Below, piece by piece: positions 7,501-54,559 of a stretch of 64,000 nucleotides of DNA. How positions within the stretch are numbered: position 1 is the first letter of the stretch; each line of letters starts with the position of its first letter. The notes below the pieces were generated by a model. It was not told the DNA's origin. It was given only the letters and a program-made list of their open reading frames with translations, and did not search any database. The DNA comes from Salvelinus alpinus (lineage: Eukaryota > Chordata > Actinopteri > Salmoniformes > Salmonidae): contig NC_092122.1 of the NCBI RefSeq assembly GCF_045679555.1, forward strand, positions 13,009,043 to 13,073,042, given 5' to 3'. The translations under genes and the position numbers were made by a program.

Positions 7501-10500
7501 TATATTGTAGATTTTCCCCCTCTAAATGCTTCCTCACTTCCTTTGGACTACTCCTTGACTTGAATGTGCAACTATGATTCTGGTTTGTCACCCCTTGACT
7601 GTTGTGAACTCACTGATGTCCGACAGGTGACTGACGGATCACGTTGTCTCTTATCCTCAGATTTCAGCTTCGCTATGAACCCCCCCTCCATGATCGCTAC
7701 GGGCAGCGTGGGGGCGGCCGTCTGCGGCCTGCAGCTGGACCAATCAGACCAGGCCCTGAGTCGAGACCGTCTAACTGACCTGCTGGCCAAGATCACCAAC
7801 ACTGAGGTGGTAAGTAGTGTCTATAGCCTGATCCCAGGTCTGTTTTTAATGTTTGGCCAATTCCTTGTTATGTCAATGAATGACAAGGAGTTAGCGAGAC
7901 AGCACAAACAGATCTGATATCAGGCTAGGTAAGTGCTACATGGCAGACATTTTGGGAGCATGGCGGGAAACGAGATGATTGAAGAGATGGTAATATCAGT
8001 GTTGGCGAGCGTATAAATACTTAATGTGTTCCAACAATGGGCACCGACACCCTCTTTGGCTGCCTGTTAGACTTAGCTATTCACCAAAGTTCCTGGGCTT
8101 GGAGCACGGAGATCTTCCTGGTAAACAAGAGCGATGCTACAGTATGCCTGCAGTAGTCGCACATTGAAGCTATTTACTTTTCATGGAGTCAGAGCCTGTG
8201 GGTCTTGGCTCAGGACCTAGACTGCAGCTATAAAGAGCAGAGGCAAGGGAATGTCTTCTTAGAACCCAGGGCCCACATTCTTGTGGTAGGACACAGGCAG
8301 GCAGTTCCTTTGCATGGCTCCCACTTTAACTCTTCTCTTATGCCTAACAGAGGCTCCATCTTTCCAGGGGAAATGGCAGACGAGAAACTCACAGATTTCC
8401 TAACTCCTTAAGATGACATGCATTGAGAGCTCCCACACCATATATATTAGTGGAGGCTGGTGGGAGGCGCTATAGGAGGATGGGCTCATTGTAATGGCTG
8501 GAATGAAATTAATGGAACGGTATTAAACATATGGAAACCACATGTTTGACTCTGTCCCATTTATTCCATTCCAGCCATTATTATAGCTCCTCCCACCAGC
8601 CTCCACTGCTATATATATACACACACACACACAGTGCCTTCGGAAAGTATTCAGACCCCTTGCCCTTGACTTCTTCCACATTTTGTTAGGTTACAGCCTT
8701 ATTCTAAAATTGATTCAAAAAAAATTTCATCAATCTACACAAAATACCCCATAATGACAAAGCAAAAACAGGTTTTTAGAAATGTTTGCTAATTTATATA
8801 TATTTTTTAAAACAGAAATATCACATTTACATAATAATTCAGACCCTTTACTCAGTCCTTTTTAAAGCACCTTTGACAGCAATTACAGCCTGGTGTCTTT
8901 TTGGGTATGACGCTACAAGCTTGGCACACCTGTATTTGGGGAGTTTCTCCCATTCTTCTCTGCAGATCCTCTCAAGTTCTGTTAGGTTGGATGGGGAGCG
9001 TTGCTGCACAGCTATTTTCAGGTCTCTCCAGAGATGTTCGATCGGGTTCAAGTCCGGGCTCTGGCTGGGCCACTCAAGAACATTCAGAGACTTGTCCCGA
9101 CGCCACTCCTGCGTTGTCTTGGCTGTGTGCTTAGGGTCGTTGTCCTGTTGGAAGGTGAACCATCGCCCCAGTCTGCGGTCCTGAGCACTCTGGAGCAGGT
9201 TTTCATCAAGGATCTCTCTGTACTTTGCTCCGTTCATCTTTGCCTTGATCCTGACTAGTCTCCCAGTCCCTGCTGCTGAAAAACATCCCCACAGCATGAT
9301 GCTGCCACCACCATGCTTCACTGTAGGGATGGTGCCAGGTTTCCTCCAGACGCTTGGCATTCAAGCCAAAGAGTTGACGCTTGGTTTCATCAGACCAGAG
9401 AGTCTTGTTTCTCATGGTCTGAGAGTGTTTAGGTGCCTTTTGGAAAACTCCAAGCATGCTGTCATGTGCATTTTACTGAGGAGTGGCTTCCATCTGGCCA
9501 CTCTACCATAAAGGCCTGATTGGTGGAGTGCTGCAGAGATGGTTGTCCTTCTGGAAGGTTCTCCAATCTCCACAGAGGAACTCTAGAGCTCTGTCAGAGT
9601 ATCCATCGGGTTCTTGGTCACCTCCCTGACCAAGGCCCTTCTCCCCCAATTGCTCAGTTTTGCCGGGCGGTCAGCTCTAGGAAGAGTCTTGATGGCTCCA
9701 AACTTCTTCCATTTAAGAATGATGGAGGCCAATGATGCAGAATTGTTTTGGTAACGTTCCCCAGATCTGTGCCTCGACACAATCCTGTCTCGGAACTCTA
9801 CAGACAATTAATTTGAGCTCATGACTTAGTTTTTGCTCTGTAATGCACTGTTAACTGTGGGCCCTTATATAGACAGGTGTATGCCTTTCCAAATCATGTC
9901 CAATCAATTGGATGTACCATAGGTGGAATCCAATCAAGTTGTAGAAACATCTCAAGGATGATCAATGGAAACAGGATGCGCCTGAGCTAAATTTCGAGTC
10001 TCATAGCAAAGGGTCTGAATACTTATGTAGATAACCTGTTTTCGCTTCGTCATTATGGGGTATTGTGTGTAGAATGCTGAGGATTTTTATTTATTTAATC
10101 CATTGTAGAATAAGGCTGTAACGTAACAAAATGTGGAAAAGGTCAAGGGGTCTGAATACTTTCTGATGGCACTGTATATGTATATATACTGCAGATGAGA
10201 AAATCTATAATTTTGCGTCACAGATTAAATCGCTGTTTTGTTGTCTAAGATATTTCTTTATCACTGTAAGTCTGCACTCTTGGCTTACACAAAGGAACCT
10301 GAGGCCAGTTCAGCAGCACACAGGGACTCAGGGGCCACAGTCAGTCTAAGACCAGGAACAACCCAGCAGCTCTCGATAGACCTGTGGTTATTATGTGGCC
10401 ATGGCAACGCTGGCGCTCAGACTGTGGCCCATTAAGTTTGAGTTATCCGTACATTTCAAAGGAATGTTGGCCTCTTTGCGAGCTGTGTGCACTCTTTAGG

Positions 10501-16287: not shown

Positions 16288-19200
16288 ATGCTTACATTTA
16301 GCTTGACCGTTGTTCGACAGTAAGTAAATACCACCACCTTTCTGTTTTGTGTTCTGTATGTATAATATATTTACTAAAATGTACGTAGGCTTCTGCATTC
16401 TTGACAACCCTATTGAACCACTTCAAAGCACAGCTGTCAGTTGCCGACAATATTAGCTAGGAAGCGTGTTGCCTATTCAAATGTATCATCTAACAGTATT
16501 AGTCTGTGCCAAAGCGGCTGCCTAGCTAAATCCATAGGTTTCTTATTCTGCCACCATATCGAAGCAGTGTCACCCTGAGTGTCCTCTCTCCATAGACCAC
16601 ATATAAAGCCTCTCTCCCATGCAGCCTCCTTGAAAGACATGCAAGTGATTAAAGCTATTAACGTTAAATTCTAGAGGTGAAAAGTTATCTGATACTCTTT
16701 ATCCTCAGAAAATTGCTGTGCATGTAATTTTCAAAATGATTATCTTCTCAATTTCACAGTGGGGAGACACAATACAACAAGGAGAAGTTGCTACAAGGTA
16801 TGTTGTCATTTGTAAACATTCCAACCTTGACCAGTAATGACCTTCACTCGGGAATCATGTGTGATTTAAAAACAAAGGCTGTAAGAACCAGCTATAAACC
16901 TTTCCTTGTTGCTCATGTATCAGCTAGTAGAATCAAAGTTATTGATCCTCATCTGTTTCCATGTTCACTTGAGAGGGAATGTTAAAATAATGGTAATTCA
17001 CACAAACACTGACTAATCCCTTATCCAACTGGTTTTCTAAGTGTGTATACAGTTGAAGTCGGAAGTTTACATACAGTTAGGTTGGAGTCATTAAAACTCG
17101 TTTTTCAGCGACTCCCCAAATTTCTTGTGAACAAACTATTTTTTTGGCAAGTCTGTTAGGACATCTACTTTGTGCATGACACAAGTCATTTTTCCACCAA
17201 TTGTTTGCAGACAGATTATTTCACTTATAATTCACTGTATCACAATTCCAGTGGCTCAGAAGTTTACATACACTAAGTTGACTGTTCCTTTAAACGGCTT
17301 GGAAAATTCCAGAAAATTATGTAATGGCTTTAGAAGCTTCTAATAGGCTAATTGACATCATTTGAGTCAATTGGAGGTGTACCTGTGGATGTATTTCAAG
17401 GCCTACCTTCAAACTCAGTGCGTCTTTGTTTGACATCATGGGAAAATCAAAAGAAATCAGCCAAAACCTCAGAAAAAAATTGTAGATCTAAACACATCTG
17501 GTTCATCCTTGGGAGCAATTTCCAAACGTCTGAAGGTACCATGTTCATCTGTACAAACAATAGTACGCAAGTATGAACACCATGGGACCACGCAGCTGTC
17601 ATACCGCTCAGCTCATCTCCTTGAGATGAACGTACTTTGGTGTTGAGAAGTGCAAATCAATCCCAGAACAACAGCAAAGGACCTTGTGAAGATGCTGGAG
17701 GAATCAGATACAAAAGTATCTATATCCACAATAAAACGAGTCCTATATTGACTTACCCTGATAGGCCGCTCAGCAAGGAAGAAGCTACTGCTCCAAAACC
17801 TCCATTAAAAAAAGCCAGACTACGGTTTGGAACTGCACATGGGGACAAAGATCGTACTTTTTGGAGAAATGTCCTCTGGTCTGATGAAACAAAAATGGAA
17901 CTTTTTGGCCATAATGACCATCGTTATGTTTGGAGGAAAAAGGGGAGGCTTGCAAGCCGAAGAACACTATCCCAACTGTGAAGCACAGGGATGGCAGCAT
18001 CATGTTGTGGGGGTACTTTGCTGCAGGAGGGACTGGTGCACTTCACAAAATAGATGCCATCATGAGGGAGGAAAATGATGTGGATATATTGAAGCAACAT
18101 CTCAAGACATCAGTCAGGAAGTTAAAGTTTGGTCGCAAATGGGTCTTCCAAATGAACAATGACCCCAAGAATACTTCCAAAGTTGTGGCAAAATGGCTTA
18201 AGGACAACAAAGTCAAGGTATTGGAGCGGCCATCACAAAGCCCTGACCTCAATCCCATAGAAAAGTTGTGGGCAGAACTGAAAAAGCGTGTGCGAGCAAG
18301 GAGGCCTACAAACCTGACTCAGTTATACCAGCTCTGTCAGGAGGAATGGGCCAAAATTCACCCAACTTATTGTGGGAAGCTTGTGGAGGCTACCTGAAAC
18401 GTTTGACCCAAGTTAAACAATTTAAAGGCAATGCTGCCAAATACTAATTGAGTGTATGTAAAATTCTGTCCTGTCTGGTCCAGCGACGGTGGGTTTGTGC
18501 CCATAGGCGACGTTGTTGCCGGTGATATCTGGTGAGGACCTGCCTTACAACAGGCCTACAAGCTGTCAGTCCAGCCTCACAGCCTATTGCGGACAGTCTG
18601 AGCACTGATGGAGAGATTGTGCATTCCTGGTGTAACTCGGGCAGTTGTTGCCATCCTGTACCTGTCCTGCAGGTGTGATGTTCGGATGTACCGATCCTGT
18701 GCAGGTGTTGTTATACATGGTCTGCCACTGCGAGGACGATCAGCTGTCTCCCTGTAGCGCTGTCTTAGGCGTCTCACAGTATGGACATTGCAATTTATTG
18801 CCCTGGCCACATCTGCAGTCCTCATGCCTCCTTGCAGCATGCCAAAGGCACGTTCATGCAGATGAGCAGGGTCCCTGGGCATCTACCTTTTTGGTGTTTT
18901 TCAGAGTCAGTAGAAAGGCCTCTTTAGTGTCCTAAGTTTTCATAACTGACCTTAATTGCCTACCGTCTGTAAGCTGTTAGTGTCTTAACGACAGGTGCAT
19001 GTTCATTAATGTTTATGGTTCATTGAACAAGCATGGGAAACAGTGTTTAAACCCTTTACAATGAAGATCTGTGAAGTTATTTGGTTTTTTAAGAATTATC
19101 TTTGAAAGACAGGGTCCAGAAAAAGGGACGTTTCTTTTTTTGCTGAGTTTAGAAGTACAGTAATGAGGGAAATTTTTGTTTCTAGCCTAGTAGCTGATTT

Positions 19201-20251: not shown

Positions 20252-22480
20252 AGATGGACAAGGCAACACAAAAGGTTTAGTCACTACTCTGTTCTGTTTA
20301 AATGTTATTTACTGTAGCTAACAAACCACTGAAAGTAAAGAATATCTGGCACAGTGACCTGTCTAATATTGATGATATGAGTTGGGGGGAGATTTTAGTA
20401 GGGTCATCGAAGAACACAAATCACCAATTGATTCATTTTTTATTTTATACACAGTAAATAAATTAAGCATTTTTGCACAGTTTATATCTTCGCCTGTTTT
20501 AAAGCTTTTTAAGTAACCTACACGTTATGTGACCTCACCCATGGTGACCTAGGCTCTTTTATGCATATGTATTGGAAGTGCCCCAAAGTGGATAGATTTT
20601 GAAGATTGGTATCTTCTACCTTTGCTGATGTTCTTGGAGTCACTATACCAGTCCTTAATGATGACTCATCACACACACTGTCACTCCAACAATGACGTGT
20701 AATGCTGACAGGTTTGACAAAAGCAGAAAAGATGCTGGCGCTGCGATGGCAATTACACACAAAAATGTACTACCTCAGTTGTTCTTTTGATTGTGTATTT
20801 ATTTGGCTAGAGATCGGGGTGGGTTGGCTTGAGAGGTCGGATGGTGCAGCTTGAATCAGTCTGAAGTTGGGTCCATATCCCTGTAGTGATATCATGTATC
20901 TATTTTACATAATTTTGTTCCTTTGTCATTGAGGTTTGTCTGTTTTTCCCGTTCTATTAACAAATGTAATCAGAAATTGATCACGAGAGAGGAATGAATA
21001 CCCGACCACAGACAAGTACACTGAGAAGTAGAGGACACAGTATTATGGGAATACAGGGTAAATTATTAGCTTTTTAGCTGTCAATGGACCCTTTTTACAG
21101 TAGATCAGTGCAAATTCTGCAGAACTATTGGCAGGATGTTTGTATATCCTGTGTGAGTCGATTTTCCCGGTCTTCCAATATTTATCCATGGAATGTTCTA
21201 TGGAAACTAAACACTTCCTGTGTCATAGTCCAATGAAATGAGGACTTGTTTGGAATGTTTTAGTGTGGATAATGTAATGGTTTGTTTCCACTACTAAGTC
21301 GCTCATGTTGAAGATTTAGTTGTTGTTTTTGTCATATTATACCAAAGGCAGAAAAGTGTGAGGAATGTCATTATCTTTTAAAGCCTTTACAATGCAATGT
21401 GGAGTTATCACTTTTTGTTGTCCTTGTCCATTATGAGATAATAAATTATACACTGCAAAAAGTACAGAGTTACAGTATTGTTTGGTATTATTTTGGTTGT
21501 GATTAATCAATACAATACAAGGCTTCAATATTGGTGTTTAACATGTTCAATGGCTATGTATTTCAAGTGTTCAAAGTGGTCACAAGCTTCCTCTGATCTT
21601 GCTCAAATGTAATTGTCACTAAAGGTTGCATGAGGCAATAGCTTGTGCAAGTCTTGTAGTTTCTTCATGCAAAGCAGGATTTGAACCCGTGGACGTTTGC
21701 AGGTTGGGAAATATCAGGTTTAATCACCCGAGGGCCCACTTCCGAGTTACAGGCTTGCTCATGTTTAAAACCTGATAGAAATCACTTTGTTTCAGTGCTC
21801 AGGCAGAGCGTGACCGGTCAAAGAACTGGGGCAATTGAAAATTCTGCGACAGCTACTGACCTGTGTCTAGATTGTTCGAGACAACCATGAGTAATGTTCC
21901 GAAGGCACCAGTGGCAGCATAAACATCTGTACTAAATCTGATCCTTCAACATGAATGGGTGGGTTTGCATAAAACTCGAGTGTTATTACAGCTCTTTTTT
22001 TGAAAGAATATTGCAATGTGTGAATAAACTGCCTAAAAAATATTGAAAAATATCTACACTATCATATCAATCAAAAAAATGTGCCTTCACTCATGACCAC
22101 CACTGAGATTGTTAAGGCTCCTCTCAGATGTGACAGCCAGGTCAATGTGGTTTAACCTCAGTGAAACAGGACAAAGATTAGTGGTCACTGTAATGTGTTC
22201 CTTTGACTAAAATACCTCCAACATGTTACTTAGTGAGAGTGAAACAAAATTAGAATGTGGAAATGTTTATTTGTAGACAGTGATGGTTTGGCAAAAACTA
22301 AGATATGACAATTTTCTCCATAATGAGATGCGGAAGCCTGAGACATGCAACTTTAATGACTGGAAGCTCGAAGTGAATGAGTCAATGGTCAACCTGCTTA
22401 GCACAATGTGACACAGAGCTTCCTCACACATTTAGCCTGTACTTATATGATTGCATCATACATAGAATTCTAGGATGAAG
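20252..22480. other. tigar 3' flank and spacer to the fgf23 duplication
   Basis: AT-rich, no coding exon recognised. The tigar 3' UTR is probably in the first few hundred bases. No recognised mobile element. Confidence 0.5.
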
Positions 22481-23228
22481 TGGCTGTGAGTATACAGTTC
22501 TTCATCCTGAAGTTCTAAAATATTAATCTAAAATACAATATAAATTAATTGTAAGTCATATTTTCTTCAACATTATACATTTTTTCAAGATAAATGTCAC
22601 TAGCCCTCACACACATAACCTGTAAGTTATGAGAAGGCTTTCAGAATTCCTCTTTAAGTTAAGCATCCATATAAATACTATAAATAACAAATTAATAGAT
22701 TTAAATCAATATAACCTGTCGTATTTGTTCTGATACCCTGTAGAGGGGACCATTAATTTCCGTTTAAAATAAAACGTCTCCCTTGAAGAACATGCATTAT
22801 AACATGCATGCCTACTGGCACATTAAACATTATAGTAGGGCTAATTTTAGATGGAATATGTTTAAGTTTCATATCAAGAATCCTCCCCGTAAACAGAGCG
22901 CAATCAAATACAGAATTTGCGTCCTGGAATCAAAAATTACGGAAACCAAGAGTTACTCACTGTGCTATAGTGAAGAATGGCCGAAATAAAACGTTCTAAT
23001 GTGGTACTTTTTTGGATACATATTTCATCTTATGACTACATATCAATTACTAATATGCCCTAATAAGGGTGGCACGGTCCGACTTTCACAAGTATTACAT
23101 CTGTTTAAAACATTGAGGGTTGATTGCAAAACTGCTGGAAAAGACCCAACGTGAACACATACATAGCTTACATTGATAAACCCAAGCGTACAACTGCGAG
23201 TGCCCTGTCCTCTTATCCCATCATTCCA

Positions 23229-24417
23229 TTAATGATACGGGGGCTGGGAGGGGGGTTTAGGGAATGCACGTTCCACGGGTCGTCGAGGGAGTCTTTGACT
23301 TTGACATCCCTCGGGGAGTTCAGCCTCCTGGTCCATCTCCAAGGTGTCATCCAGCTCCGTCATTGCCCGGGAGTCCTCATCCTCCTCCGTTTGACCCAGC
23401 ATGCTGTAAGGATCAGAAGAATCAACCACCCGGTTCCTCTTCTCCCGGTGCAAGAGGCGCTCCAGCGGCACGGTGTTCATCTCCGATAGGAAGAGGGAGG
23501 TTTGCGGTAGATTCTGACTCACAGTGTACACTTGCTTTATCCCTTCCAAGTTGAGCAGAATACCAGTTCTGCAAGAGTAGTACACGTCGCGGTGGTTTTC
23601 CAATAACTTGTGGTTAAAAGGACAGTCTTTCTTGTGGCAAACAGTCTGTAAACAGATTAATTTACGCAAACAGACCATTTATAAACGTACATAAAATAAC
23701 TTCATTGTCAAAGTGTTACTTGAGTGCTAAACACAAGAACACTTCGACCAATGTAAAAATGTGATATTATATTGGCTATGTGTTTGGATAAAAGTGGTCT
23801 GAAATCCGTGCGTAAAAGCGCATTTTTGGTAGGCATATGACAGAAAGAGCTCAAATTAGGAAACTTCTGAGTCTTATTCTACATGTTAAGAACACATGTA
23901 TTTCAGTTCAATGGATAATGAAAATGGGCATTTACTTACAGAGCTGAAAGGGTTTCCCAGGGCATCCATGCACAGGTAGCGGTTACTTTTGACTCCAAGT
24001 ATCGCCACGCGCTCTCTTGTTTCCGCCTTCAATAAAATCACACCTGTTGACAAAATGAAATGTGTTAGCCTATAGAAGCAGATTAAAGACAAAGACTTAA
24101 AACAAAATTTCAATCAAAACCAAACGGCAAAAATGTAATAAGAACTTACTGTATGAGCCTCGAAGTGTAGTTTTGCGCAAGTGGCCATTTAAACTGATCT
24201 CAATGTAGAAATTGTTCACGTCTGAAGACGTCTGCAAACTGGCAAACTGGCAACCTTCAGCTGATCTGATGGTCCAACGTCTTCTCGGATTCCCCCAGTT
24301 GGATCCTATGAGAGGTGATGGGTTTGGAAGAGCGTCTACTAGTCGAAATCCCAGAAGAACAGCCAGTAAGAGCACAAGGACGGCGTCCCTCATCCCAGAT
24401 GTATTGGTTATTTCCAT
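23229..24417 (-). CDS. fgf23: Fibroblast growth factor 23, tandem copy 1
   Basis: Secreted endocrine FGF that acts with Klotho and FGF receptors to control phosphate and vitamin D. Coding exons on the minus strand are 24417-24150, 24043-23940 and 23645-23229 (268, 104 and 417 bp; 262 residues). Donors are GTAAGT and the phases match the FGF family. A signal peptide lies in the first 30 residues (DAVLVLLLAVLLGFRLVDA). The core has NPSPLIGSNWGNPRR, ERVAILGVKSNRYLCMDA and NHKLLENHRDVYYSCRTGI. A furin-type site follows (REKRNR), then DPYSML, which aligns with the human DPLNVL Klotho contact. Exon 1 has 11 extra residues next to NPRR that copy 2 lacks. The C-terminus ends KPPSQPPYH, in a different frame from copy 2 after a net 14-bp difference. 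The second ATG (MRDAVL) could also start. Intact, but it looks like the more diverged of the pair. Confidence 0.95.
24237..24280 (-). repeat. 44-bp leader-derived segment inside fgf23 copy 1 exon 1
   Basis: Where copy 2 has 11 bp (YVH), copy 1 has 44 bp encoding about RWTIRSAEGCQFAS. Its core cttcagctgatctgatggtc and following caacgt match the fgf23 leader at 24498-24523 (one mismatch) and the copy 2 leader at 31391-31416 (no mismatch over 26 bp). Confidence 0.9.
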
Positions 24418-24536
24418 CTTTTACCCCTAAAATACAGACAATGTATCCCAGAGATTTCGGATGTAGCTTTGAATTCAGCAGCAAGCTGTTGGCAAACTTC
24501 ATCTGATCTGATGGTCCAACGTTTGAGAACGGCTCA

Positions 24537-24543
24537 ATTTAAA
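24537..24543 (-). promoter_or_regulatory. TATA-like box of fgf23 copy 1
   Basis: TTTAAAT on the minus strand about 120 bp upstream of the ATG, conserved in the duplicate. The core role is inference. Confidence 0.45.
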
Positions 24544-25235
24544 GGGATCCAAGTGCCACTCCTGCTCGCATCCTTTAGCCTACGCAGCGCTCGCCCCCAA
24601 CGCAGATGTGGGTCTTTCTCTCGGCGGGAGGAAGGGGGTGCATCTCCACCTGAATGTTTGTCTAAAGGTATTGGTCACCAAATAACGTAGTAGTCTCCTT
24701 GAGCAATGTCTGTACAAAAGTGACGTATTTTTTCAAACATCAGCACTTTCATAACCATGATCCTTGCACTAATATTTAAATTGCATATGTCATCACAGTG
24801 TGTGCAATATAACCCTCTGTCCAGTAAGCATATTATAATAGACTTATATATTTTCTATAGATATAGAAACATATTAATAATTTCACATTGAAAAACTGAC
24901 TATAGATAAGTCTATAGATAATCTATACAACCAATTCCCAAGGTTTCCTGTTCCTAATCTATACAACATATTCCCAACACCTTTCCAATGTTTTGAAAAC
25001 GTAATTATATCATAGTAATTGAACATTATGGTACAATCTGTTCGAATTAAATGATAAGACAACATCTTAAACTTCGAAAAATATTTGACACTTTAAAAAC
25101 ACAGATCTAATGTAGTGCTGTATTTCTATCTAGTATTTTCTATACAATTATAAAAACATAAATCCATGCCTGAATAATACTAATTAAGCTCCCAAATTAA
25201 CATTACACTGTGCGTATAGTTGATGATGACTGGGG

Positions 25236-25715
25236 GAGCTAGACTTACTTTGTCCAATATTACCCCTTGTGTAGAAACAACACTGCCGCTTCTTGTTTAG
25301 GTTACTTCCTATGTGAATTACACAACCATTGTCCTGTCTTCCTTTTGATTCCTACACATCTGTAATGGAACCACTTCACCATGCAGCAGATGATCTTGCC
25401 GAACAGATGTCTATTGCAGGAACAGATTACTGCTGATCCCTCCTCCTATTCATTCAATACCATTTGCAACTTCCTTTTCTGCAACTCTGGAATCAGGTGA
25501 TGTTCAACAAAGGCTTGGGTTCTGATCAACAGGTCTTGAATGAATGCCTCATCTCAGGGAAGATTGATGACAGAAATGCCTTGCTGTGTCCAGACAACAA
25601 AGTTACCCTGTTGACATCCTGTGACAAGCAGTTGTGTTTGAACTTGAGTGAAGTACTGGTGTTTTCTCTTCAACCAATTGGTTTCCAGGCAAAATGCTGC
25701 ATCCTCCAGTTGAAC
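25236..25715. other. Spacer between duplicated units
   Basis: Unique sequence with no gene or repeat recognised; it ends at a Tc1 terminal repeat. Confidence 0.5.
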
Positions 25716-25956
25716 TACAGTACCACTCAAAAGTTTATTCAAGAGTTTGTCTTTATTTCATTTTTTCCCTACATTGTAGAATAATAGTGAAAACATCAAA
25801 CTATGAAATAACACATATGGAATCATGTAGTAACCAAAAAAGTGTTGAACAAATCAACATATATTTTAGATTTTAGATTCTTCAAAGTAGCCACCCTTTG
25901 CCTTGATAACAGCTTTGTACACTCTTGGCATTCTCTCAACCAGCTTCATGAGGTCA
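25716..25956 (-). mobile_element. Tc1-like transposon end fragment
   Basis: Begins acagtaccactcaaaagttt, a salmonid Tc1 terminal repeat, and continues as 'cattgtagaataatagtgaaaacatcaaa' and 'tagccaccctttgccttgat', the reverse complement of the transposase C-terminus. It stops at 'cttcatgaggtca', so only about 240 bp remain. Confidence 0.85.
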
Positions 25957-26261
25957 GCTTAAGCTTTTATAGATTATATTGAAAGAACAAGGGGGAAACA
26001 TATCGCAATTGAAAATTGATTAATGTTTAAATTTAGTATTTGGCTGTTTTGGGCTGCCAGAGCCAGTCTACCTCTGAAAATAACATAAGGTTGTTGGACT
26101 TTAAGGAGTAATGGTAACGTTAGGCTCCTTAAAGGACAGATCGAAATGTACCAGGGGGGAGGGGCCTATCCAACTCAAGGTGTCATAAAAAAAATGCAAA
26201 TGAAAAGTTACAATATTTCCACATGACCCTCCCCTTTTACTTTAAAATAAATTGAACACCC

Positions 26262-26275
26262 CCCCCCCCCCCCCA
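26262..26275. repeat. Poly-C tract
   Basis: About 14 C in a row in the spacer between the fgf23 copies. Confidence 0.85.
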
Positions 26276-26560
26276 TAGAATTTCCTCAAAATAATGTTTA
26301 CGACCACAAATAACAATAACTGTAGCGACCCTGTGTTTATAAAGGTGGATATCAACTTTGCCACTTCGGCATGCTTTTGTGGCAGAGTCGATGCCATGCA
26401 GGGCTACGGGACAGACGTTTGAGGGTTCACCGACTACCACAAACGAGCTCACTTTTCCTGCCTGTTTCATTATATTATAATCAGAGCTGGCTGCAGACAA
26501 TGATCAGCTAGGGGGAAATAAGATTTTAAACAGTTTGATGCCATTTATAATTATATAAAA

Positions 26561-27545
26561 TATACTAAACAAAAATATAAATGCAGGGCCTCCCGAGTGG
26601 CGCGGTGTTCTAAGGCACTGCATCGCAGTGCTAGCTGTGCCACTGGAGATCCTGAAGACCCATGGCAATGCAAGCTGACACGGTCGACAGGTGTACAGTG
26701 TTTCCTCCGACACATTGGTGCGGCTGGCTTCCGGGTTAAGCGGGCATTGTGTCAAGAACCAGTGAGGCTTGCCTGGGTTGTGTTTCGGAGGACGCACGGA
26801 TCTTGACCTTCCCCTCTCCCAAGTCTGTATGGGAGTTGCAAAGATGGGACAAGACTGTAACTACGAAAAAGGGTTCAAATATATAAATGTGACATACAGC
26901 AATTTCATTCATTTGCAGTACATAGGAGGAAATCATACATTTATTAGACTTTAATCTATGGATTTCACATGACTGGGAATACAGATACCTTAAAAAAATA
27001 TGGGCCTCACAATGTGCCTCAGGATCTCATCACAGTATTTTTGTGCATTCAAATTGCCATAGATTAAATGGAATTGTATTCATTGTCTGCAGCTTATGCC
27101 TGCCCATACCATAACCCCACCATCACCATGGGGCCCTCTGTTCACAACATTGACATCAGAAAACCGCTCGCCCACACGACACCATACACGTGGTCTGAAG
27201 TTGTTAGGCCGGTTGGACATACTACCAAATTCTTTAAAATGATGTTGGAGGCGGCTTATGGTAGAGAAATTTAAATTAAATTCTGGCAACAGCTCTGGTG
27301 GACATTCCTACAGTCAGCATGCCAATTGCACGATCCCTCAACTTGTGACACCTGTAGCATTGTGTTGTGTGACAAAACTGCATATTTTAGCATGGCCTTT
27401 TTATTGTTCCCAGCACAAGGTGCACCTGTGTAATGATCATGCTGTTTAATCAGCTTCTTGATATGCCGCAGGTGGATGGATATGTCAGGTGGATGAATTA
27501 TCTTGGCAAAAGAGAAATGCTCACTAACAGGGATGTAAACAATAA
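26561..27545 (-). mobile_element. Tc1-like element remnant, internally deleted, with a SINE inside
   Basis: The left end tatactaaacaaaaatataa is the terminal repeat of a well-known salmonid Tc1 family. On the minus strand 27080-27289 encodes [20 protein letters not shown] joined to [19 protein letters not shown] and VMVWAGIS, so the part between the DNA-binding and catalytic domains is deleted. The far end (near 27541) stops at 'aacagggatgtaaac' without its terminal repeat. Confidence 0.85.
26586..26868 (+). mobile_element. HpaI/SmaI-like tRNA SINE
   Basis: Starts gggcctcccgagtggcgcgg, the tRNA-like head of this salmonid SINE family, and continues through 'ctccgacacattggtgcggctggcttcc'. Flanks aaatataaatg (about 26575) and aaatatataaatg (about 26877) look like a target-site duplication in the host Tc1 element. 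Confidence 0.85.
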
Positions 27546-28432
27546 TGTAACAGGGATGTAACACTGGTGCGATTGCTAACCTTTCAAACAGCAACACACA
27601 GCAAGTTAAGTTTTTATGTCAAATACACAAGTACAGTGAAATACATTTCTTGCAAGCTCTAAACATAAGCAAAATAACACATGAAAAATCTTATATGGCT
27701 GAATATGGGATTTATTGTAATTTATATAATTACAAAGTCCCTAACGTTGTAGATTACTGTCAATATCAAGTCCATTCAGACGATTCAGAAACAAAACAGA
27801 GTACGCCTTTTTCTCCACCCAGAACTGCATTTGCTTGCTATTATGACATCATGGGGATCTCAGGTATGCCGTTTTTCATCCTTAAGTACTAAAATATTTA
27901 TCTAAAATATAACCCCCAAAAATAAATACATTGAAAAAAAGTCATATTTTGTTCATAATAATTTATTTTTCAAGATAAATGTCACAAACACTCACACACA
28001 GCCTACTCACAACTAACCTAATGTAGCAGCCATAAAAGAAACGCCTGAGCTGAGTCCCCACATCCGGTTTTCTGGGGAAACGGAAGCTATATCCCATCAA
28101 AGGCCAACTCAGAATTCCTCTTTAACAGTTAAGCATCCATATAAATACTAGAAATAACAATAAATGAATAGATTTAAATAAATAAATACTTTCAACTTTC
28201 TTGGGATTGGCTTTGTTGCTTGCTTTTGCTGGCCAGCACCTATCACCAACCTGTTCTTTCTATGTGTTCTGATACCCTGTAGGGTGTAGGCCTGCCATTC
28301 ATTCCCGTTTTAAATTAAATGTCTCACTGCAAGAAAATGGCCTATAACATGTAGGCGTACTGGCATATTAAACATTGTAGTAGGCCTAATTTTATATGGA
28401 ATATGTTTAAGTTTCATCATCATAATCTGACC

Positions 28433-29676
28433 TTGTACTCTTAGATTTAAGTGCTGCGTTCGACACTGTTGACCATGATGTCTTTCTGGACAGACTGAAG
28501 AGGTGGGTTGGCCTCTCCGGTCCAGTTCTAAATTGGTTTAGGACCTATTTAACTGGTCAAGAGTTCTCTGTCACCCTTGGTGAACATAACTCGGAGAAAA
28601 TACATATCATGTTGTTCCACAACGTTTGATTGTGGGTCTGGTACTGTTCAGTTTATATATGCTACCCCTTGGCAGCGTTATCAGAAAGCACAGAATTGAT
28701 TTGCACTGCTACGCAGACGATACACAACTTTGCATTTCTGTGTCACCAGAGGATTTTAGCTCCACGTATAAATTATTATTTAAATACTTGGTTGGCTCAC
28801 AACTTCCTCCAGCTAAATCAAGAGAAGAATGAGGTACTTATTGTTGGAGCCAAAGCCCAGAGAGAGAATCTAGCCGCACATTTTAATTCACGGGCAATAA
28901 AGATAAAACAACCAGGTAAAAAACGATGTGTTATTTCAGATGCTGAACTAAATTTCAAATCACACATTAGGAATGTGACCAAAATAGCTTTTTACCACGT
29001 GAGGAACATTGCCAAGGTGCGGCCGTTTCTCACTCAGGCTGATAGAGACTCATCCATGCTTTTATTACAAGCAGGCTTGACTACTGTAATGGTCTCCTGT
29101 CTGGTCTACTCAAGAAAGCCATTAGTCAACTACAAAACATAGAATGCAGCAGCACGGGTACTGACCAAGACCAGACGGAGAGTACACATTACACCAATTT
29201 TAAAGGTCTCTGCACTGGCTGTCTGTGAGTTTTAGAATTAATTTTAAGACTCTTCTATTGGATTTTAAATCTATCCATGATTGTGCACCTCAATACATGT
29301 CAGACATACTTTTATGTTAGGTCCCTCAGGTCCAATGGCACTGGCCTTTTAACAAACCCAAAGCCTATGACCAAGAAGCATTTAGAGGCATGCCAGACAA
29401 CCTGAGGGGGGCCGAAACTGTGGACATATTTAAAAGAGATCAACTGTGGACATATATAAAAGAGATCTTAAAACACACATTTTAGCTTTGCTTTTCATTG
29501 GGGTCCTTTTTTTGTTGTTCAGTTTGTGTCATCTTTTGTTTTTTATCTCATGTTTGTTCTTTAGTAAATATTTCAGCTTCTATTTTCATCGTTTTTTTTA
29601 CAATGTTTTTCCTGTAAAGCACATTGTGTTGCGTTCCATGTCTGAAATGTGCTGTATAAATAAAGCTTGATTTGAT
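28433..29676 (+). mobile_element. LINE fragment (L2-like), RT C-terminal part
   Basis: Encodes [19 protein letters not shown], the RT core with its first catalytic Asp, then [25 protein letters not shown] (the catalytic pair is kept), but in several frames. The 3' end gtgctgtataaataaagctt followed by ttgat repeats is the poly-adenylation-like LINE tail. It sits between blocks shared by the fgf23 units, so it inserted into unit B only. Confidence 0.85.
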
Positions 29677-30102
29677 AAACCAAGTATTTTCTTGTAGGCT
29701 TCTTACATTGTAAAACATTTAATAAAGTGACTTCAGCTCAACTTACTTTTTTTCTTCGAAGAAGACGCACAAATATTTCGTGTTTCAGCATGATTCTCAT
29801 AAGAATCCATCCCGTAAACAGAGCGCACTCATGTGCAGAATTTGCGTCCTAGAATTAAAAAGCACGGTAACCAATAGTTACTGTACATACCCACTAGCTA
29901 CTGTGCTATAGTGAAAAATGAACAAAATACAATTTTCCGTCTTATGACTATATACAAACGACTAATATGCCTGTCACGGTCAGCCTTTCACAGGTGTAAT
30001 AGTTAGGGTCTGTTTCCAGACCAGCTGGAAAAGATCCAACGTGAACGCGCACACAATTTATATTCTTAAAACCAGGTGTACAACGGCAAGTGTCCTGTCC
30101 TC

Positions 30103-31311
30103 TTATCCCACCATTGCATTCATTATACGGGGGCTGGGAGGGGGGTTTAGGGAATGCACGTTCCACGGGTCGTCGGAGGGAGATTGGGGGGTCTCCCTGG
30201 AGATGTTGCGTCCCTCGGGGAGTTCAGCCTCCTGGTCCGTCTCCAAGGTGTCATCCAGCTCCGGCATAGCCCGGGAGTCCTCATCCTCCTCCGTCTGCCC
30301 CAGCATGTTGTACGGATCAGAAGGGTCAACCACCCGGTTTCTCTTCTCCCGGTGCAAGAGGCGCTCCAGTGGCACCGTGTTCTTCTCCGACAGGAAGAGG
30401 GAGGTTTGCGGTAGATTCTGACTCACAGTGTACACTTGCTTTATCCCTTCCAAGTTGAGCAGAATACCAGTTCTGCAAGAGTAGTACACGTCGCGGTGGT
30501 TTTCCAATAACTTGTGGTTAAAAAGACAGTCTTCCTTGTGGCAAACGGTCTGTAAACAGATACATTTACGTAAAAACTGCAATTTAGAAACGTATATCCA
30601 TTAACTTAATTGTTTAAGTGTTGCTTGAGTGCTAAACACAAGAACACTTCGACCAGTGTAAAACAAAACAAAAAAGGATAAGATATAGGCTGTGTGTTTT
30701 GATAAAAGTGGTCTGAAATCCGTGCGTAAAAGCGCATTTTTGGTTTATGTCAGGAAGGGTTCAAATGAGGAAAAAGTGCCATTCAATTATCTCACGTGTC
30801 TTATTCTAAATGTTAAGAAAACATGTATTTCAGTTCAATGGATAATGAAAATGGGCATTTACTTACAGAGCTGAAAGGGTTTCCCAGGGCATCCATGCAC
30901 AGGTAGCGGTTACTTTTGACTCCAAGTATCGCTACGCGCTCTCTTGTTTCCGCCTTCAATAAAATCACAGCTGTTGACAAAATTAATTGTGTTAGCCTAT
31001 AGAAGCAGATTAAAGACAAAAACTTCAAACCAAATTTCAATCAAAAAGAAACGGCAAAAGTGTAATAAGAACTTACTGTATGAGCTTCGAAGTGTAGTTT
31101 TGCGCACGTGGCCATTTAAACTGATCTCAAGGTAGAAATTGTTCACGTCTGAAGACGTCTGCAGGTGTACGTATCTTCTCGGATTCCCCCAGTTGGATCC
31201 CAGGAGAGGTGATGGGTTTGGAAGAGCGTCTACTAGTCGAAATCCCTGAAGAACAGCCAGTAAGAGCACAAGAACGGCGTTCCTCATCCCAGATGTCTTG
31301 GTTATTTCCAT
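30103..31311 (-). CDS. fgf23: Fibroblast growth factor 23, tandem copy 2
   Basis: Same role as copy 1. Coding exons on the minus strand are 31311-31077, 30970-30867 and 30549-30103 (235, 104 and 447 bp; 261 residues). The mature N-terminus NPSPLLGSNWGNPRRYVHLQT is very close to the zebrafish Fgf23 I remember, so this copy keeps the ancestral exon 1 form. The exon 2 junction codon reads Thr where copy 1 has Ser. It has the same furin-type site (REKRNR) and keeps DPYNML, matching human DPLNVL better than copy 1 does. The C-terminus ends PPPSPRIMNAMVG. The signal peptide resembles that of copy 1 (NAVLVLLLAVLQGFRLVDA). All splice sites are good and no stops are seen, so it appears functional. Confidence 0.95.
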
Positions 31312-31430
31312 CTTTTACCCCCAAAACACAGAAAATGTATCCCAGAGATTTTGGATGTAGCTGTGAGTTCTGCAGCAAACTGTTTGCAAACTTCAGCTGA
31401 TCTGATGGTCCAACGTTTGAGGACGGCTCT

Positions 31431-31437
31431 ATTTAAA
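31431..31437 (-). promoter_or_regulatory. TATA-like box of fgf23 copy 2
   Basis: TTTAAATAGAG on the minus strand about 120 bp upstream of the ATG, slightly better than the copy 1 site (TTTAAATTGAG). Confidence 0.45.
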
Positions 31438-32125
31438 GGGACCCAAGTGCCACTCCTGCTCACATCCTTTAGCCTACGCAGCATTCGCAGATGTGGGTCT
31501 TTCTCTCGGCGGAAGGAAGGGGGTGCATCTCCACCTGACTGTTTGTCTAAAGGTATTGGTCACCAAATAACGTAGTAGTCTCATTGAGCAATGTCTGTAC
31601 AAAAGTGAAGTCTTTTTTTTCACGCATAAAAACGTTCACAATCAGGATCCTTGGACTCATGTAACCTCTGTCATTTCAGTGTGTGAAATATACCCCTCTG
31701 TCCAGTAAGCATATTATAATTACCTATATATTTTTGGGAGGTATAGAAAAAAACAATGAGTCAAGGTTATGCCCTTTATTGGGTCCAGTTTTACCCATTT
31801 TATAAGGCTAAAGATAATCTATACAACCAATTCCCAAGGTTTCCTGTCCCTAATCCATACAACATATTCCCAACACCTTTCCAATGTTTTGAAAACGTAA
31901 TTGTATGATAGTAATTGAACATTATGGTACAATCTGTTTGAATTAAATGATAAGACAACATCTTAGACTCAGATACATATTTGACCATTTAAAAACACAC
32001 ATCTAATGTAGTGCTGTATTTCTATCTGACATTTCTATTTAATTATAAAAACATAAATCCATGCCTGATTAATACTAATTAAGCTCCAAATTAACATTAC
32101 ACTGTGTGTATATATGACGATGAGT

Positions 32126-34660
<2,535 letters not shown>

Positions 34661-40500: not shown

Positions 40501-41279
40501 ATGGAGGAACAAAGACGTGCATAATACAGTGGTGGGTGTAACCTTGTAGGTGGCTACTCTGCACGCATCGTCTTTGTTCTGTATAATTTGGGGAGCAATG
40601 CTGTTCATCTCCTATTGCCCAAATAAATATCTATCATAACTGCACTTTCTGACGTGCATGGCAATCCTTTTCTGGGCCACAGAAGGAGCCAGTGTAAAAA
40701 TAAGTTGGCGTCTATATTGGTCCAAGCATTCATGTCATGTTTTGGCCTGGGAAGATATTTAGCACTGACTGATACAAGGTTTTTTAATAGATTTGTCTTT
40801 GCTTTGAGAGACATTCAATGTTGTCGACCCCAATGATTAAATATCATGCAAGACCGACAAGGAGCTCTCAAGTCGCCTTTACTTGGGACCGCTCATATTA
40901 TATGTTCTCTATTGAATTACATTTCAGGATGCGACTCACTGTACTGGTTCTCATTATGTACACCGTTTATCCTGCCGTCAGGGAGGATCTGCAGGTGAAA
41001 TCCAATGCCCACGTTGCAGTAAAGTCGCCGCACTCTCTTGATGCCCAGCAAATAGTCACTCTCCCAGTTCATGTCCGATTTCGCCCCAGAGATTCCCAGA
41101 ACGGAGCGGGAAAAGAGGGTCTCCCACCTTTGCTCCAATAAAGTTGCATTAGTCCTGCTTGGAATCGGATATGATGACACAATCCCCAATAGAGACCCCA
41201 AGAGAACAATTGCAGTCAACGTCCAGTGCGTGCTTGCCTCGTTGCACATACCGATGAAGAACCTTTGCGCAATGGCCAT
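37554..41279 (-). CDS. fgf6: Fibroblast growth factor 6, three coding exons
   Basis: Secreted heparin-binding FGF of the FGF4/6 group, mainly linked to skeletal muscle growth and repair. Coding exons on the minus strand are 41279-40940, 40430-40327 and 37733-37554 (340, 104 and 180 bp; 207 residues, as in mammals). Start [11 protein letters not shown] aligns with human MALGQKLFITM; a hydrophobic signal segment [19 protein letters not shown] follows. The core contains [38 protein letters not shown], exon 2 [19 protein letters not shown], and exon 3 [20 protein letters not shown] then [10 protein letters not shown]. Splice sites are consensus (acaGTGAGT, acgGTAGGT, tttttAG) and phases 1 and 0 match the family. 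FGF4 is less likely because of the N-terminus and the position next to fgf23. The a/b paralogue is not decided. Confidence 0.95.
37935..38424. mobile_element. Possible TTAA-ended non-autonomous element in fgf6 intron 2
   Basis: Bounded by attaaaggggcagtgcattc and (inverted) tttaaagccagcatgcagtc, weakly matching ends of TTAAAG...TGCA type. No coding capacity. Boundaries and class are uncertain. Confidence 0.35.
39197..39248. repeat. Fragment of the 545-bp palindromic element
   Basis: cattataacacttgcagatc and the following tgtctaatgggagtttgaat match 37158-37208 with few changes. It lies in fgf6 intron 2. Confidence 0.8.
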
Positions 41280-41569
41280 CCAGTTTACCTTCGGGGCACG
41301 TGGTCAAAGTTAATGGCCCTAAAAATACCTCTCTTCTTGTTTTTCTTCCTTTGGCATGGTGGTAAAAGCTTATTTTTGGAAGGCAGGTCAGGTCTTCTGG
41401 CTTGAAATGACAGCCCGAAAGAGGAGTAGAAAAAGGAGAGAGCGTGACAGAGCTTGAGGTGGTGGTGATGATCATCTTTTGCAGCTCCGCGCCTCTCTCG
41501 ATAGGCAACGCTGGCTGTGGAGAATACCACTCACCAAAAACCTATGTCACCTTGCCAGGCACTCGCATC

Positions 41570-41599: not shown

Positions 41600-42765
41600 G
41601 CCCGTCGAAGTGAGGGAGGGGAGAGAGAGAGGAAGAAAAAGTTGCAACCCAGCAAGTGTATGCAGCAAGCGCTGAGCTGCAAGTCTGATGAGAGAATGTG
41701 CAGCCGCTGTCACCTCACATGTGAGATGGGGCAGGGGGAGAGGAGTTTCATTGGGTAGAGTTGAGCAATCATGGGATGCGATGGGTACTTTGACGGAGCC
41801 CAAATTGGGACGCTGGTCATATGTCTGACAGGCTGCTTCCTTATTTAGAATGAAGGTGTAAAAACAGTCCAGTAGTCACCGGAGAGCAATGGCAATCCTG
41901 TCCGCCACTTCCTTCGCTGTTTGTTCAGGAAGTTTATACAACAACACATTTCGGAATGCCTGAAAATATTTATTATTATTATTTCGGAATGCCTGGAAAG
42001 TTTATTATATAGAGAATGCACTTGTTACCGATTAAAAAAGGAAAACCCATGTCACAGGAATGTGAGTGATCTTTCTGTCTCGGGGTTCCCTTACCCCCCC
42101 AAACTTCGGGATACTGGAAAACGCGGTGCTATTGTCAGCCTTGAACAGACGACATAATACATATGCCGCGGGGAATGCCCATACGTCAGAGAGTACCATG
42201 CTACGTGGTTCCCCAAGTGCTCTGGGTGCCAAGGAGCACAAGTCAAGTCATACCTTGGCAACCACTAAGAGGGGCGCTGTTGCTGATACACAAACAACAG
42301 TTATATGAAATCATTGCTGTGCTTTGGCAACATTTTCAATTTGAAAAGACAAAGCATTTTGTCTGCTACATCATTTATATCTATACATTTCTTAAAATCA
42401 GAATTTATGAGAAATAAGATTTTATTACATAGCAAATATTGCATTTGTATAGGTCTACAGGAATGGAGTTGATAGCCTGATTTTTGTTCTTCCAGAAGTG
42501 GATATGGACTGTTCTTCTATTTGTGAAATAACATAAAACACTCCATTACTATACAATAAGCAATAACTGTTGTTAATGTTGTAACTTCCAAAAATGATTG
42601 CTATAAAAATTCTAATTGGGACAGTTGTAGTGGGGTACCAAAGAGTCAGAATATTCCAATATTTTTCACAATTATACAGTTTAAGTGATCTACAGTTCAA
42701 GTGAAAGGGGAACAGTAGAATAGGCAAGCATGGCAGAGAGTTTTTTCAGCAGGCCCTCAGTCTGC
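41600..42765. other. fgf6 upstream sequence
   Basis: No exon recognised. It has a short local duplication of 'cggaatgcctg' near 41953 and 41985 separated by a TTA-rich stretch, and is otherwise unremarkable. Confidence 0.45.
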
Positions 42766-43220
42766 ACAGAGGCCAACAAGCAGTTACAGAGACCAACAAA
42801 CTGTTATAGAGGCCAACAAACAGTTACAGAGGCCAACAAACCGTTACAGAGGCCAACAAACCGTTACAGAGGCCAACAAACAGTTACAGAGGCCAACAAA
42901 CAGTTACAGAGGCCAACAAACCGTTACAGAGGCCAACAAACAGTTACAGAGGCCAACAAACCGTTACAGAGGCCAACAAACAGTTACAGAGGCCAACAAA
43001 CAGTTACAGAGGCCAACAAACAGTTACAGATGCCAACAAACCATTACAGGAGGCCAACAAACAGTTACAGAGGCCAACAAACAGTTACAGAGGCCAACAA
43101 ACCGTTACAGAGGCCAACAAACCGTTACAGAGGCCAACAAACAGTTACAGAGGCCAACAAACCGTTAGGGAGACAAACACACCGTTACAGAGGCCAACAA
43201 AGCCTTACAGAGGCCAACAA
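42766..43220. repeat. 20-bp minisatellite, left block
   Basis: About 22 units of cagttacagaggccaacaaa, with variants (ccgttacag, agacaaacacacc). The same array resumes at 51364-51570 on the far side of a LINE. Confidence 0.97.
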
Positions 43221-43644
43221 ATCAAATCAAATTTATTTATATAGCCCTTCTTACATCAGCTGATATATCAGTGCTGTACAGAAACCCAGCCTAGAACCCC
43301 AAACAGCAAGCAATGCAGGTGTAGTAGCACGGTGGCTAGTAAAAACTCCCTATAAAGGCCAAAACCTAGGAAGAAACCTAGAGAGGAACCAGGCTATGAG
43401 GGGTGGCCAGTCCTCTTCTGGCTGTGCCGGGTGGAGATTATAACCTAACATGGCCAAGATGTTCAAATGTTCATAAATGACCAGCATGGTCAAATAATAG
43501 TAATCACAGTGAACAGGTCAGGGTTCCATAGCTGCAGGCAGAACAGTTGAAACTGGAGCAGCAGCATGGCCAGGTGGACTGGGGACAACAAGGAGTCATC
43601 ATGCCAGGCAGTCCTGAGGCATGGTCCGAGGGCTCAGGTCCTCC

Positions 43645-44555: not shown

Positions 44556-45032
44556 TGTAACGGCTGTCCTCCTCCTCTTCATCCGAAGAGGAGGAGCAGG
44601 GATTGAACCAAGGTGCAGCGGGTTGTGAATACATAATGAAATTTATTGACAAGACGAAAAAACGAACACGAACTACACTTGAAATGATACAAAATAACAA
44701 ACGACGTAGACTGACCTAAACATGAGAACTTACATAGACACGAAGAACGCACGAACAGGAACAGACTACATACAAACCGAAACAGTCCCGTGTGGTACGA
44801 AATAACATACAGACACGGAAGACAACCACCCACAAACAAACAGTGTGAAAACACCTACCTTAATATGGCTCTCAATCAGAGGAAATGAAAACCACCTGCC
44901 TCTAATTGAGAGCCATATCAGGTCACCCTTAAACCAACATAGAAACAGAAAACATAGACTGCCCACCCAAACTCACGTCCTGACCAGCTAACACATACAC
45001 AAACTAACAGAAAACCGGTCAGGAACGTGACA
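44556..45032 (-). repeat. 3' LTR of element A
   Basis: 477 bp, nearly identical to 46965-47441. Confidence 0.93.
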
Positions 45033-45299
45033 TAACCCCCCCCTCAAGGTGCATACTCCGAACGCACCACCAAAAGTCTAGGGGAGGGTCTGGGTGGGCA
45101 TCTGACCACGGTGGTGGCTCCGGCTCCGGACGCTGTCCCCATCCCACCATAATAAATCCCCGCTTCTGTGTCTTCCTCAAGGTGGCGACCCTCGCCACCG
45201 ACCTTGGACTGGGAACCCTAGACATGGGTCCCGCTGGATTTAGGGGCCGCCCCGGACTGAGGGACGGCAGCTCCGGACTGAGGGACAACACCGGACTGG

Positions 45300-45900
45300 C
45301 TGGCGGATCCTGGCTGGCTGGCTCTGGCGGATCCTGGCTGGATGACGGCTCTGGCTGGTCATGGCTCGCTGACGGCTCTGGCTGGTCATGGCTCGCTGAC
45401 GGCTCTGGCTGGTCATGGCTGGACGGCTCTGGCTGGTCCTGGCTGGACGGCTCTGGCTGGTCCTGGCTGGACGGCTCTGGCTGGTCCTGGCTGGACGGCT
45501 CTGAAGGCTGGTCCTGGCTGGACGGCTCTGAAGGCTGGTCCTGGCTGGACGGCTCTGAAGGCTGGTCCTGGCTGGACGGCTCTGAAGGCTGGTCCTGGCT
45601 GGACGGCTCTGAAGGCTGATCCGGTCTGGCGGAAGGCTCTGGCTGATCCGGTCTGGCGGAAGGCTCTGGCTGATCCGGTCTGGCGGAAGGCTCTGGCTGA
45701 TCCGGTCTGGCGGAAGGCTCTGGCTGATCCGGTCTGGCGGAAGGCTCTGGCTGATCCGGTCTGGCGGAAGGCTCTGGCTGATCCGGTCTGGCGGAAGGCT
45801 GTGGCTGATCCGGTCTGGCGGAAGGCTCTGGCGGCTCCTGTCTGGCGGACGGCTCTAGCGGCTCCTGTCTGGCGGACGGCTCTGTAGGCTCTTGGCAGAC
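45300..45900. repeat. 27-bp repeats within element A
   Basis: Units such as gatccggtctggcggaaggc followed by tctggct recur with a 24-30 bp period. Because the period is mostly a multiple of three, several frames on both strands stay open. Confidence 0.9.
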
Positions 45901-46964
45901 GGGCGGCTTTGCAGGCTCATGGCAGACGGGCAGCTTTGCAGGCTCATGGCAGACGGGCAGTTCAGGCGCCATTGGGCAGACGGGCAGTTCAGGCGCCATT
46001 GGGCAGACGGGCAGTTCAGGCGCCGCTGGGCAGACGGGCAGTTCAGGCACCGCTGGGCAGACGGGCAGTTCAGGCACCGCTGGGCAGACGGGCACACCTG
46101 TAGGGAGGAGACGGAGAGACAGCCTGGTGCGTGGGGCTGCCACAGGACCCACCAGGCTGGAGAGACCTACAGGAGGCTTGATGTTAAAAGGCACCTGAAG
46201 GACCGGGCTGTGGGGGAGCACTGGAGCTCTGGTGCGCAGCCTTGGCACCACTCCCCCAGGCTGGCATACTACTCCAGCCCGTACCCTCCAGAGTGCAGGC
46301 ACAGGTTGAACCGGGCTGTGGATGAGCACTGGAGATCTAGTGCCTACTACGCGCACTTCTCCCTTAGGCTCCACTCCCACATTTGCCCGGTACGAGCGGA
46401 GCGTAGGCATAGGACGCACTGCACCCTCCCAGCGCCCCGGAGACACAGCACGCAGAGCCGGCGCAGGATACCCTGGACCGAAACTGCGTACTGGAGACCA
46501 GACGCGCTGAGCAGGCACAATACGCCCCGGCTGGATGCCCACACTCACTTGACACTTTCGGGGGGCTGCCCTATAGCGCACCAGGCTATGGGCACGCACT
46601 GGCGACACCGTGCGCTTAACCGCATAACACGGTGCCTGACCAGTGACGCGTTGCTTATAATAAGCACGAGGAGTGCGCTCAGGTCTGCTACCTGGCTTAG
46701 CCACACTCCTCTCTAGCCCCCCCCAAAAAAAATTCTGGGGTTGCCTCTCGTACCTGTCCCGCTGCCGTACTGCCTCCTCATATCGCCGCCGCTCAGCACT
46801 CGCTTCCTCCAGCTCAGCTTTGGGGCGGCGATACTCCCCAGCCTGTGCCCAGGGTCCTTCTCCATTCAAGATCTCCTCCCATGTCCATGAATCCTGGGAT
46901 TTCTGCGGTTGCTTTCGCTGCCCTTTTCCCCGCTGCTTGGTTCTGGTAATTTGGTGGGTGGTTC

Positions 46965-47441
46965 TGTAACGGCTGTCCTCCTCCTCTTCATCCGAAGAGG
47001 AGGAGCAGGGATTGAACCAAGGTGCAGCGGGTTGTGAATACATAATGAAATTTATTGACAAGACGAAAAAACGAACACGAACTACACTTGAAATGATACA
47101 AAATAACAAACGACGTAGACTGACCTAAACATGAGAACTTACATAGACACGAAGAACGCACGAACAGGAACAGACTACATACAAACCGAAACAGTCCCGT
47201 GTGGTACGAAATAACATACAGACACGGAAGACAACCACCCACAAACAAACAGTGTGAAAACACCTACCTTAATATGGCTCTCAATCAGAGGAAATGAAAA
47301 CCACCTGCCTCTAATTGAGACCCATATCAGGTCACCCTTAAACCAACATAGAAACAGAAAACATAGACTGCCCACCCAAACTCACGTCCTGACCAGCTAA
47401 CACATACACAAACTAACAGAAAACCGGTCAGGAACGTGACA
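46965..47441 (-). repeat. 5' LTR of element A
   Basis: 477 bp; it contains the start of the long reading frame. Confidence 0.93.
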
Positions 47442-54386: not shown

Positions 54387-54559
54387 TAACCCCCCCCTCA
54401 AGGTGCGAACTCCGGATGCACCACCAAAAAGTCTAGGGGAGGGTCTGGGTGGGCATCAATCCACGGTGGCGGCTCAGGCTCTGGGCGTGGTTCCCACCCC
54501 ACCATAGTCACTACCCGCTTTCGTAGCCTCCTCCAAATGGCCACCCTCCAAATTAACCC

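Follow-up and report, generated by a model that had tools for sequence, protein, structure and literature searches.

In the sections of the literature drawn on here, polymerase-theta joining in flies leaves insertions whose templates, whole or in part, lie in the adjacent sequence (PMC2895639), while the variants of the human germline include templated insertions, with direct and complex ones among them (PMC8421209). As for the hormone concerned in this study, a review states that the N-terminal part of FGF23 binds the receptor domains D2 and D3 (PMC10628560), and the FGF23 tail is described as containing two sites, each able to bind Klotho (PMC8465397), and when one of them is lost, the other can compensate (PMC10628560).

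The window, i.e., the whole 64 kb stretch of DNA that was analysed, contains a tandem duplication of fgf23, with copies 1 and 2 both on the minus strand and approx. 6.9 kb between them (Table 1). In the spliced models, the frame of either copy is open across three coding exons, with a spliced length of 262 residues (codons) for copy 1 and 261 residues for copy 2, while the coding part of exon 1 is 33 nt longer in copy 1 (268 nt) than in copy 2 (235 nt). The FGF core domain (Pfam PF00167) is present in both (47.1 bits in copy 1 and 51.9 bits in copy 2, with a cut-off of 24), and the top four PDB sequences are FGF23 for either copy (best E of 1.6e-22 for copy 1 and 3.9e-29 for copy 2). In the profile search, neighbouring domains were found at 1508-1798 (Cyclin_N) and 40917-41303 (FGF); we take these exons to be ccnd2 and fgf6, respectively, and the ccnd2/fgf23/fgf6 neighbourhood is the usual gene order in vertebrates. 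When the copies are compared, the two introns show identities of 0.925 and 0.872, the 500 bp preceding the start 0.849, the sequence farther upstream 0.920 and a stretch of the tail and the 3' region 0.803, and because of these values the duplication is probably not very recent. Viral contigs were scanned once for stray fish DNA, using residues 1-226 of the 261 of copy 2, and no relative was returned.

Several other features of the window may be described. The stretch 28440-29660 looks by eye like the remnant of a reverse-transcriptase retroelement, flanked by parts that match the copy 1 unit, and no such stretch was seen in the copy 1 unit itself. Open frames resembling Tc1-type transposases (by eye) lie at 8848-9360 and 17918-18397. 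The long minus-strand open frames at 45019-47124 and 54398-57241 (701 and 947 codons) contain many short peptide repeats, e.g., QPEPSARPD and QPEPSSSHD, and their starts are somewhat similar by eye, while at 42719-43263 there is a repeat array with all three plus frames open and with units such as YRGQQTVTEANKQLQRPTN.

Table 1. Coordinates of the fgf23 features in the window, with the strand and the basis of each placement.
Feature	Position	Strand	Basis
fgf23 copy 1 exon 1, coding part	24150..24417	-	spliced model
fgf23 copy 1 exon 2	23940..24043	-	spliced model
fgf23 copy 1 exon 3, coding to the stop met past the tail frameshift	23229..23645	-	spliced model, tail alignment
fgf23 copy 2 exon 1, coding part, without insert	31077..31311	-	spliced model
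fgf23 copy 2 exon 2	30867..30970	-	spliced model
fgf23 copy 2 exon 3, coding part	30103..30549	-	spliced model
Inserted segment, 43 bp replacing 10 bp, fgf23 copy 1 exon 1	24237..24279	-	copy 2 alignment
Run of 26 bp matching the copy 2 leader throughout (its base 24280 belongs to the flank and also to the exon)	24255..24280	-	
Counterpart of the run in the copy 1 leader (25/26)	24497..24522	-	
Counterpart of the run in the copy 2 leader (26/26)	31391..31416	-	
Complex change, net -14 bp, copy 1 tail	~23284..23308	-	tail alignment, limits by eye
Sites of the three qPCR primer pairs on copy 2	30251-30270 with 30365-30384; 30314-30333 with 30364-30381; 31174-31193 with 30530-30549		

Between flanks that are common to both copies in the gene alignment (GAGAAGA and TGCAGACG), 43 bp of copy 1 exon 1 (24279 to 24237) correspond to 10 bp of copy 2, which makes a net gain of 33 bp with the frame kept and no stop; this is the sole gap within the displayed coding part of the alignment. 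At the protein level, GNPRR-YVH-LQTSSDV of copy 2 corresponds to GNPRR-RWTIRSAEGCQ-FAS-LQTSSDV of copy 1, so that 11 residues (RWTIRSAEGCQ, as placed in the spliced model) are added ahead of the FGF core, three residues at the core start are changed from YVH to FAS, and one new cysteine (position 56) is brought in. The original prediction had given the size as 44 bp for 11 bp, which is the same event with the same net +33, only counted one base wider, and its range of 24237-24523 spans the insert plus the copy 1 leader that resembles it. Its further claims, that the change is in frame with 11 net residues beside NPRR and that it adds coding sequence at the start of the FGF fold, are borne out by the gene alignment and by the open frame of the spliced copy 1 model. 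Frame preservation alone is weak evidence, as it has one chance in three.

The insert belongs to a three-member direct repeat, where 24248-24280 is matched by 24490-24522 in the copy 1 leader (94%) and by 31384-31416 in the copy 2 leader (94%). In this repeat, a 26 bp run from ACG to GAAG (ACGTTGGACCATCAGATCAGCTGAAG) agrees with the copy 2 leader in 26/26 positions and with the copy 1 leader in 25/26, as had been claimed (a perfect match and one mismatch, respectively). With a 44 bp query, the copy 2 leader scored 64 and the copy 1 leader 56; once scan pieces overlapping either leader are set aside, no other place in the window exceeds 22, while in 60 Markov-1 random windows of 64 kb the best score per window had a mean of 25.2 and a maximum of 36. 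The insert matches nearby leader DNA far above chance. Past the 26 bp run, the gapped alignment continues via TTGC, CAGTTTGC and TGCAG to the 3' junction; in the alignment to the copy 2 leader, a single mismatch and two small indels occur before TGCAG. The search for an alternative source of this second part of the insert, with nine of its 17 8-mers inspected, gave no match of 10, 11 or 12 bases in 22000-33000 outside the insert. Since there is no match of at least 10 bases, templating of the second part needs indels. Candidates for junction microhomology are ACG at the 5' end and, via the gapped alignment only, TGCAG at the 3' end.

To explain these results, we consider it quite probable that a templated insertion from an fgf23 leader took place during break repair or template switching, which is an event of a known kind. 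In the proposed mechanism, the tandem duplication of fgf23 would have come first, followed by a break or fork stalling within copy 1 exon 1, and in the course of mending, a short fgf23 leader tract would have been copied in the same orientation (by polymerase-theta end-joining or a template switch kind of process). Copying may have started at the shared ACG and stopped at the shared TGCAG, with 10 bp of the exon lost. By luck, length and frame would have been tolerable, so that copy 1 would have stayed open with 11 more residues ahead of the FGF core and FAS instead of YVH. At some time, before or after the insert, copy 1 also lost the frame of its tail. The insert, its likeness to a leader, its derived state relative to copy 2 and human FGF23, the open frame and the tail frameshift are seen in the sequences, while the pathway of repair, the microhomology at the junctions, the identity of the donor and a weakened function of the hormone are inferred. 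The original prediction had proposed templated repair or conversion, of which templated repair stands as the best explanation, while gene conversion by the paralogue was rejected and the term is wrong, because source and target are at non-homologous places (leader sequence in a coding exon).

As in the alternative end joining of flies by polymerase theta, the insert is like sequence close by, its repeats are imperfect and bases were lost at the site, although it is longer and its template is farther away (PMC2895639); 43 bp at a distance of 242 bp is long and far when compared with the 5-8 nt repeats of flies, and this speaks against the proposed explanation, as do the indels needed for templating of the second part, the dependence of the TGCAG microhomology on the gapped alignment and the shortness of ACG, which could occur by chance. 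With the templated insertions of the human germline, the insert shares the short local copy, the replacement, the complex junction and inheritance (PMC8421209). The same survey sought inverted copies within 100 bp and also met direct duplications, whereas the insert of copy 1 is direct, lies 242 bp from its like and is found in a coding exon. Judged from this one sequence, polymerase-theta joining and template switching are candidates for the repair pathway.

In a variant of this explanation, the donor is the copy 2 leader, approx. 7 kb off, reached through ectopic interaction of the tandem copies, and we regard this as a serious, although the less probable, possibility. The leaders differ at four places in the tract, one of which falls in the gap and one in letters supplied by the exon, so two are scorable. 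Both of these (CAG[C]TG and CAG[T]TTGC) have the letter of the copy 2 leader, the gapped score of the insert is 70 for the copy 2 leader vs. 58 for the copy 1 leader, and the insert 8-mer AGTTTGCA is found at 31392 in the copy 2 leader. However, two scorable sites are few, and their letters were compared with today's two leaders only, which does not tell old letters from new ones; moreover, the insert 8-mers GTTTGCCA and AGTTTGCC are present in the copy 1 leader (24497 and 24498) and absent from that of copy 2, and the copy 1 leader, just 242 bp away, fits equally if it changed later. The 8-mer GTTTGCCA is also present in exon 3 of both fgf23 genes (23642 and 30546). Between the two putative donors we favour the copy 1 leader, solely for its nearness.

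In the tail alignment with copy 2, a complex change that removes a net 14 bp puts the C-terminal tail of copy 1 out of frame. The original prediction mentions neither this frameshift nor the replacement of YVH by FAS. The tail of copy 2 has SDPYNML and DDPWNVH, which, together with their counterparts in copy 1, were likened by eye to the two human Klotho sites; copy 1 has SDPYSML, and its second stretch is out of frame, with DDPWNVHSLNPPPSPRI still in the tail DNA in another frame. The second putative Klotho-binding stretch is lost from copy 1 because the tail is out of frame, although this loss alone need not end function, since one site can compensate for the other (PMC10628560). There are six cysteines in copy 1 and four in copy 2, with the extra ones at 56 (insert) and 238 (shifted tail). 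When a donor for the tail lesion was searched for in the whole window, the best score was 25, a value without a random control for that query.

Over 223 codons (insert, FAS and shifted tail excluded), the copies differ at 15 nonsynonymous and 13 synonymous codons, with a dN/dS of 0.33, these and the following counts being small numbers from one gene pair. In the 177 codons past the insert, there are 11 nonsynonymous and 12 synonymous differences (dN/dS 0.25), in the exon 3 part without the shifted tail 7 and 10 (dN/dS 0.18), and in the 46 codons preceding the insert 4 and 1 (dN/dS 1.10); with the shifted tail and FAS included (243 codons), dN equals 0.072 and dS 0.153. In the constraint simulations (1500 runs per setting), an unconstrained copy 1 is not rejected, as the probability of so few nonsynonymous differences is 0.24-0.35 on 223 codons and 0.12-0.19 on 177 codons. 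A copy 1 with w of 0.5 together with a copy 2 with w of 0.1 fits, and on 177 codons it is the best of the settings tried (mean 10.0 vs. 11 seen), while equal constraint of 0.2 in both copies is disfavoured on 223 codons (P 0.027) and less so on 177 codons (P 0.117). Five of the sites at which the copies differ have the human FGF23 residue in one copy, and as judged by eye, copy 1 is the changed one at 4/5 and copy 2 at 1/5. The counts fit a loosened copy 1, without proving it.

It could be argued that the insert was adaptive and gave copy 1 a new receptor preference, which we consider unlikely. The insert sits just ahead of the FGF core, and it is the N-terminal part of FGF23 that contacts D2 and D3 (PMC10628560); also, the frame was kept, dN/dS is 0.25 past the insert and 0.18 in the exon 3 part, and the half-constrained copy 1 gave the best fit on 177 codons among the settings tried. 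Still, the same simulations do not reject an unconstrained copy 1 (P 0.12 to 0.35), and the tail frameshift with two extra cysteines indicates loosening. It is similarly doubtful that copy 1 would be a working, altered hormone with a longer receptor-facing N-terminal part, with one Klotho site instead of two and with a job unlike that of copy 2, made by chance DNA changes after the duplication. A loosening duplicate is likelier than innovation for copy 1.

An error of assembly or consensus that would have placed leader sequence in the exon is very improbable: a near-identical tandem gene pair can confuse assembly, but a misjoin of local sequence would leave matches, and the second part of the insert has none of at least 10 bases in 22000-33000, while the flanks and the frame are clean.

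The direction of the change can be judged from human FGF23, which lacks the insert and whose IHL faces VHL in the alignment to copy 2, while its alignment to copy 1 has a 14-residue gap and falls to 83.8 bits from the 105.6 bits of copy 2 (same chain). In the human structures (5w21, 7ysh, 7ysu and 2p39), the core and the layout at the insert site are like those of copy 2, except that at NPRR human FGF23 is three residues shorter than copy 2. The published amplicon of the S. salar XM_014153467.2 primer pair is 241 bp (PMC10135761), and the predicted product of this pair is 241 bp on copy 2 with 0 mismatches, and 274 bp on copy 1 with two mismatches in the reverse primer. Since human FGF23 matches copy 2 and the salmon amplicon fits copy 2, the insert, judged from these comparisons, is derived relative to copy 2 and human FGF23. 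The same segment in fgf23 exon 1 of an outgroup had been named as an observation that would tell against the prediction, and human FGF23 is without it. That the insert is ancestral and was later lost from copy 2, for which we found no supporting point, is ruled out for practical purposes by human FGF23, which agrees with copy 2 across the site, and by the S. salar amplicon length, which fits an insert-free gene. Among the matches listed, the titles and abstract openings of open salmonid fgf23 papers mention neither the insert nor tandem fgf23 copies, which leaves their absence from the literature unproven.

The gene fgf23 is a phosphate-hormone gene, and it is used to mark phosphorus supply in farmed salmon. 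Ten published salmon fgf23 primers were placed on both copies. The qPCR pairs of PMC5905282, PMC5158070 and PMC10135761 have 0 mismatches to copy 2, while their mismatches to copy 1 are 2 and 3, 2 and 2, and 0 and 2, respectively. The exact fit of Atlantic salmon primers to copy 2 is in keeping with a salmonid source of the window. Among the four identification primers given in PMC5905282, one differs from either copy at 4 bases, another is exact on copy 2 with 1 mismatch on copy 1, a third is exact on copy 1 with 1 mismatch on copy 2, and the remaining primer has 2 mismatches on copy 2 and lacks a good site on copy 1; therefore, the salmon sequence used for their design is identical to neither copy. 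The product in that paper is reported to be 100, 95 and 96% identical to three predicted transcripts. The Atlantic salmon transcripts named there (XM_014153467, XM_014208327 and XM_014208328) are of the same gene, with most published primers matching copy 2 exactly, and XM_014153467.2 is, by its amplicon size, insert-free, unlike copy 1.

Each of the three assays uses two primers that fit copy 2 without mismatch, of which one or both differ from copy 1 at 2-3 bases. If the fish studied has copy 1, its transcript may go unmeasured because of these mismatches. The locus offers a readable case of noncoding leader sequence turned coding, in a hormone gene.
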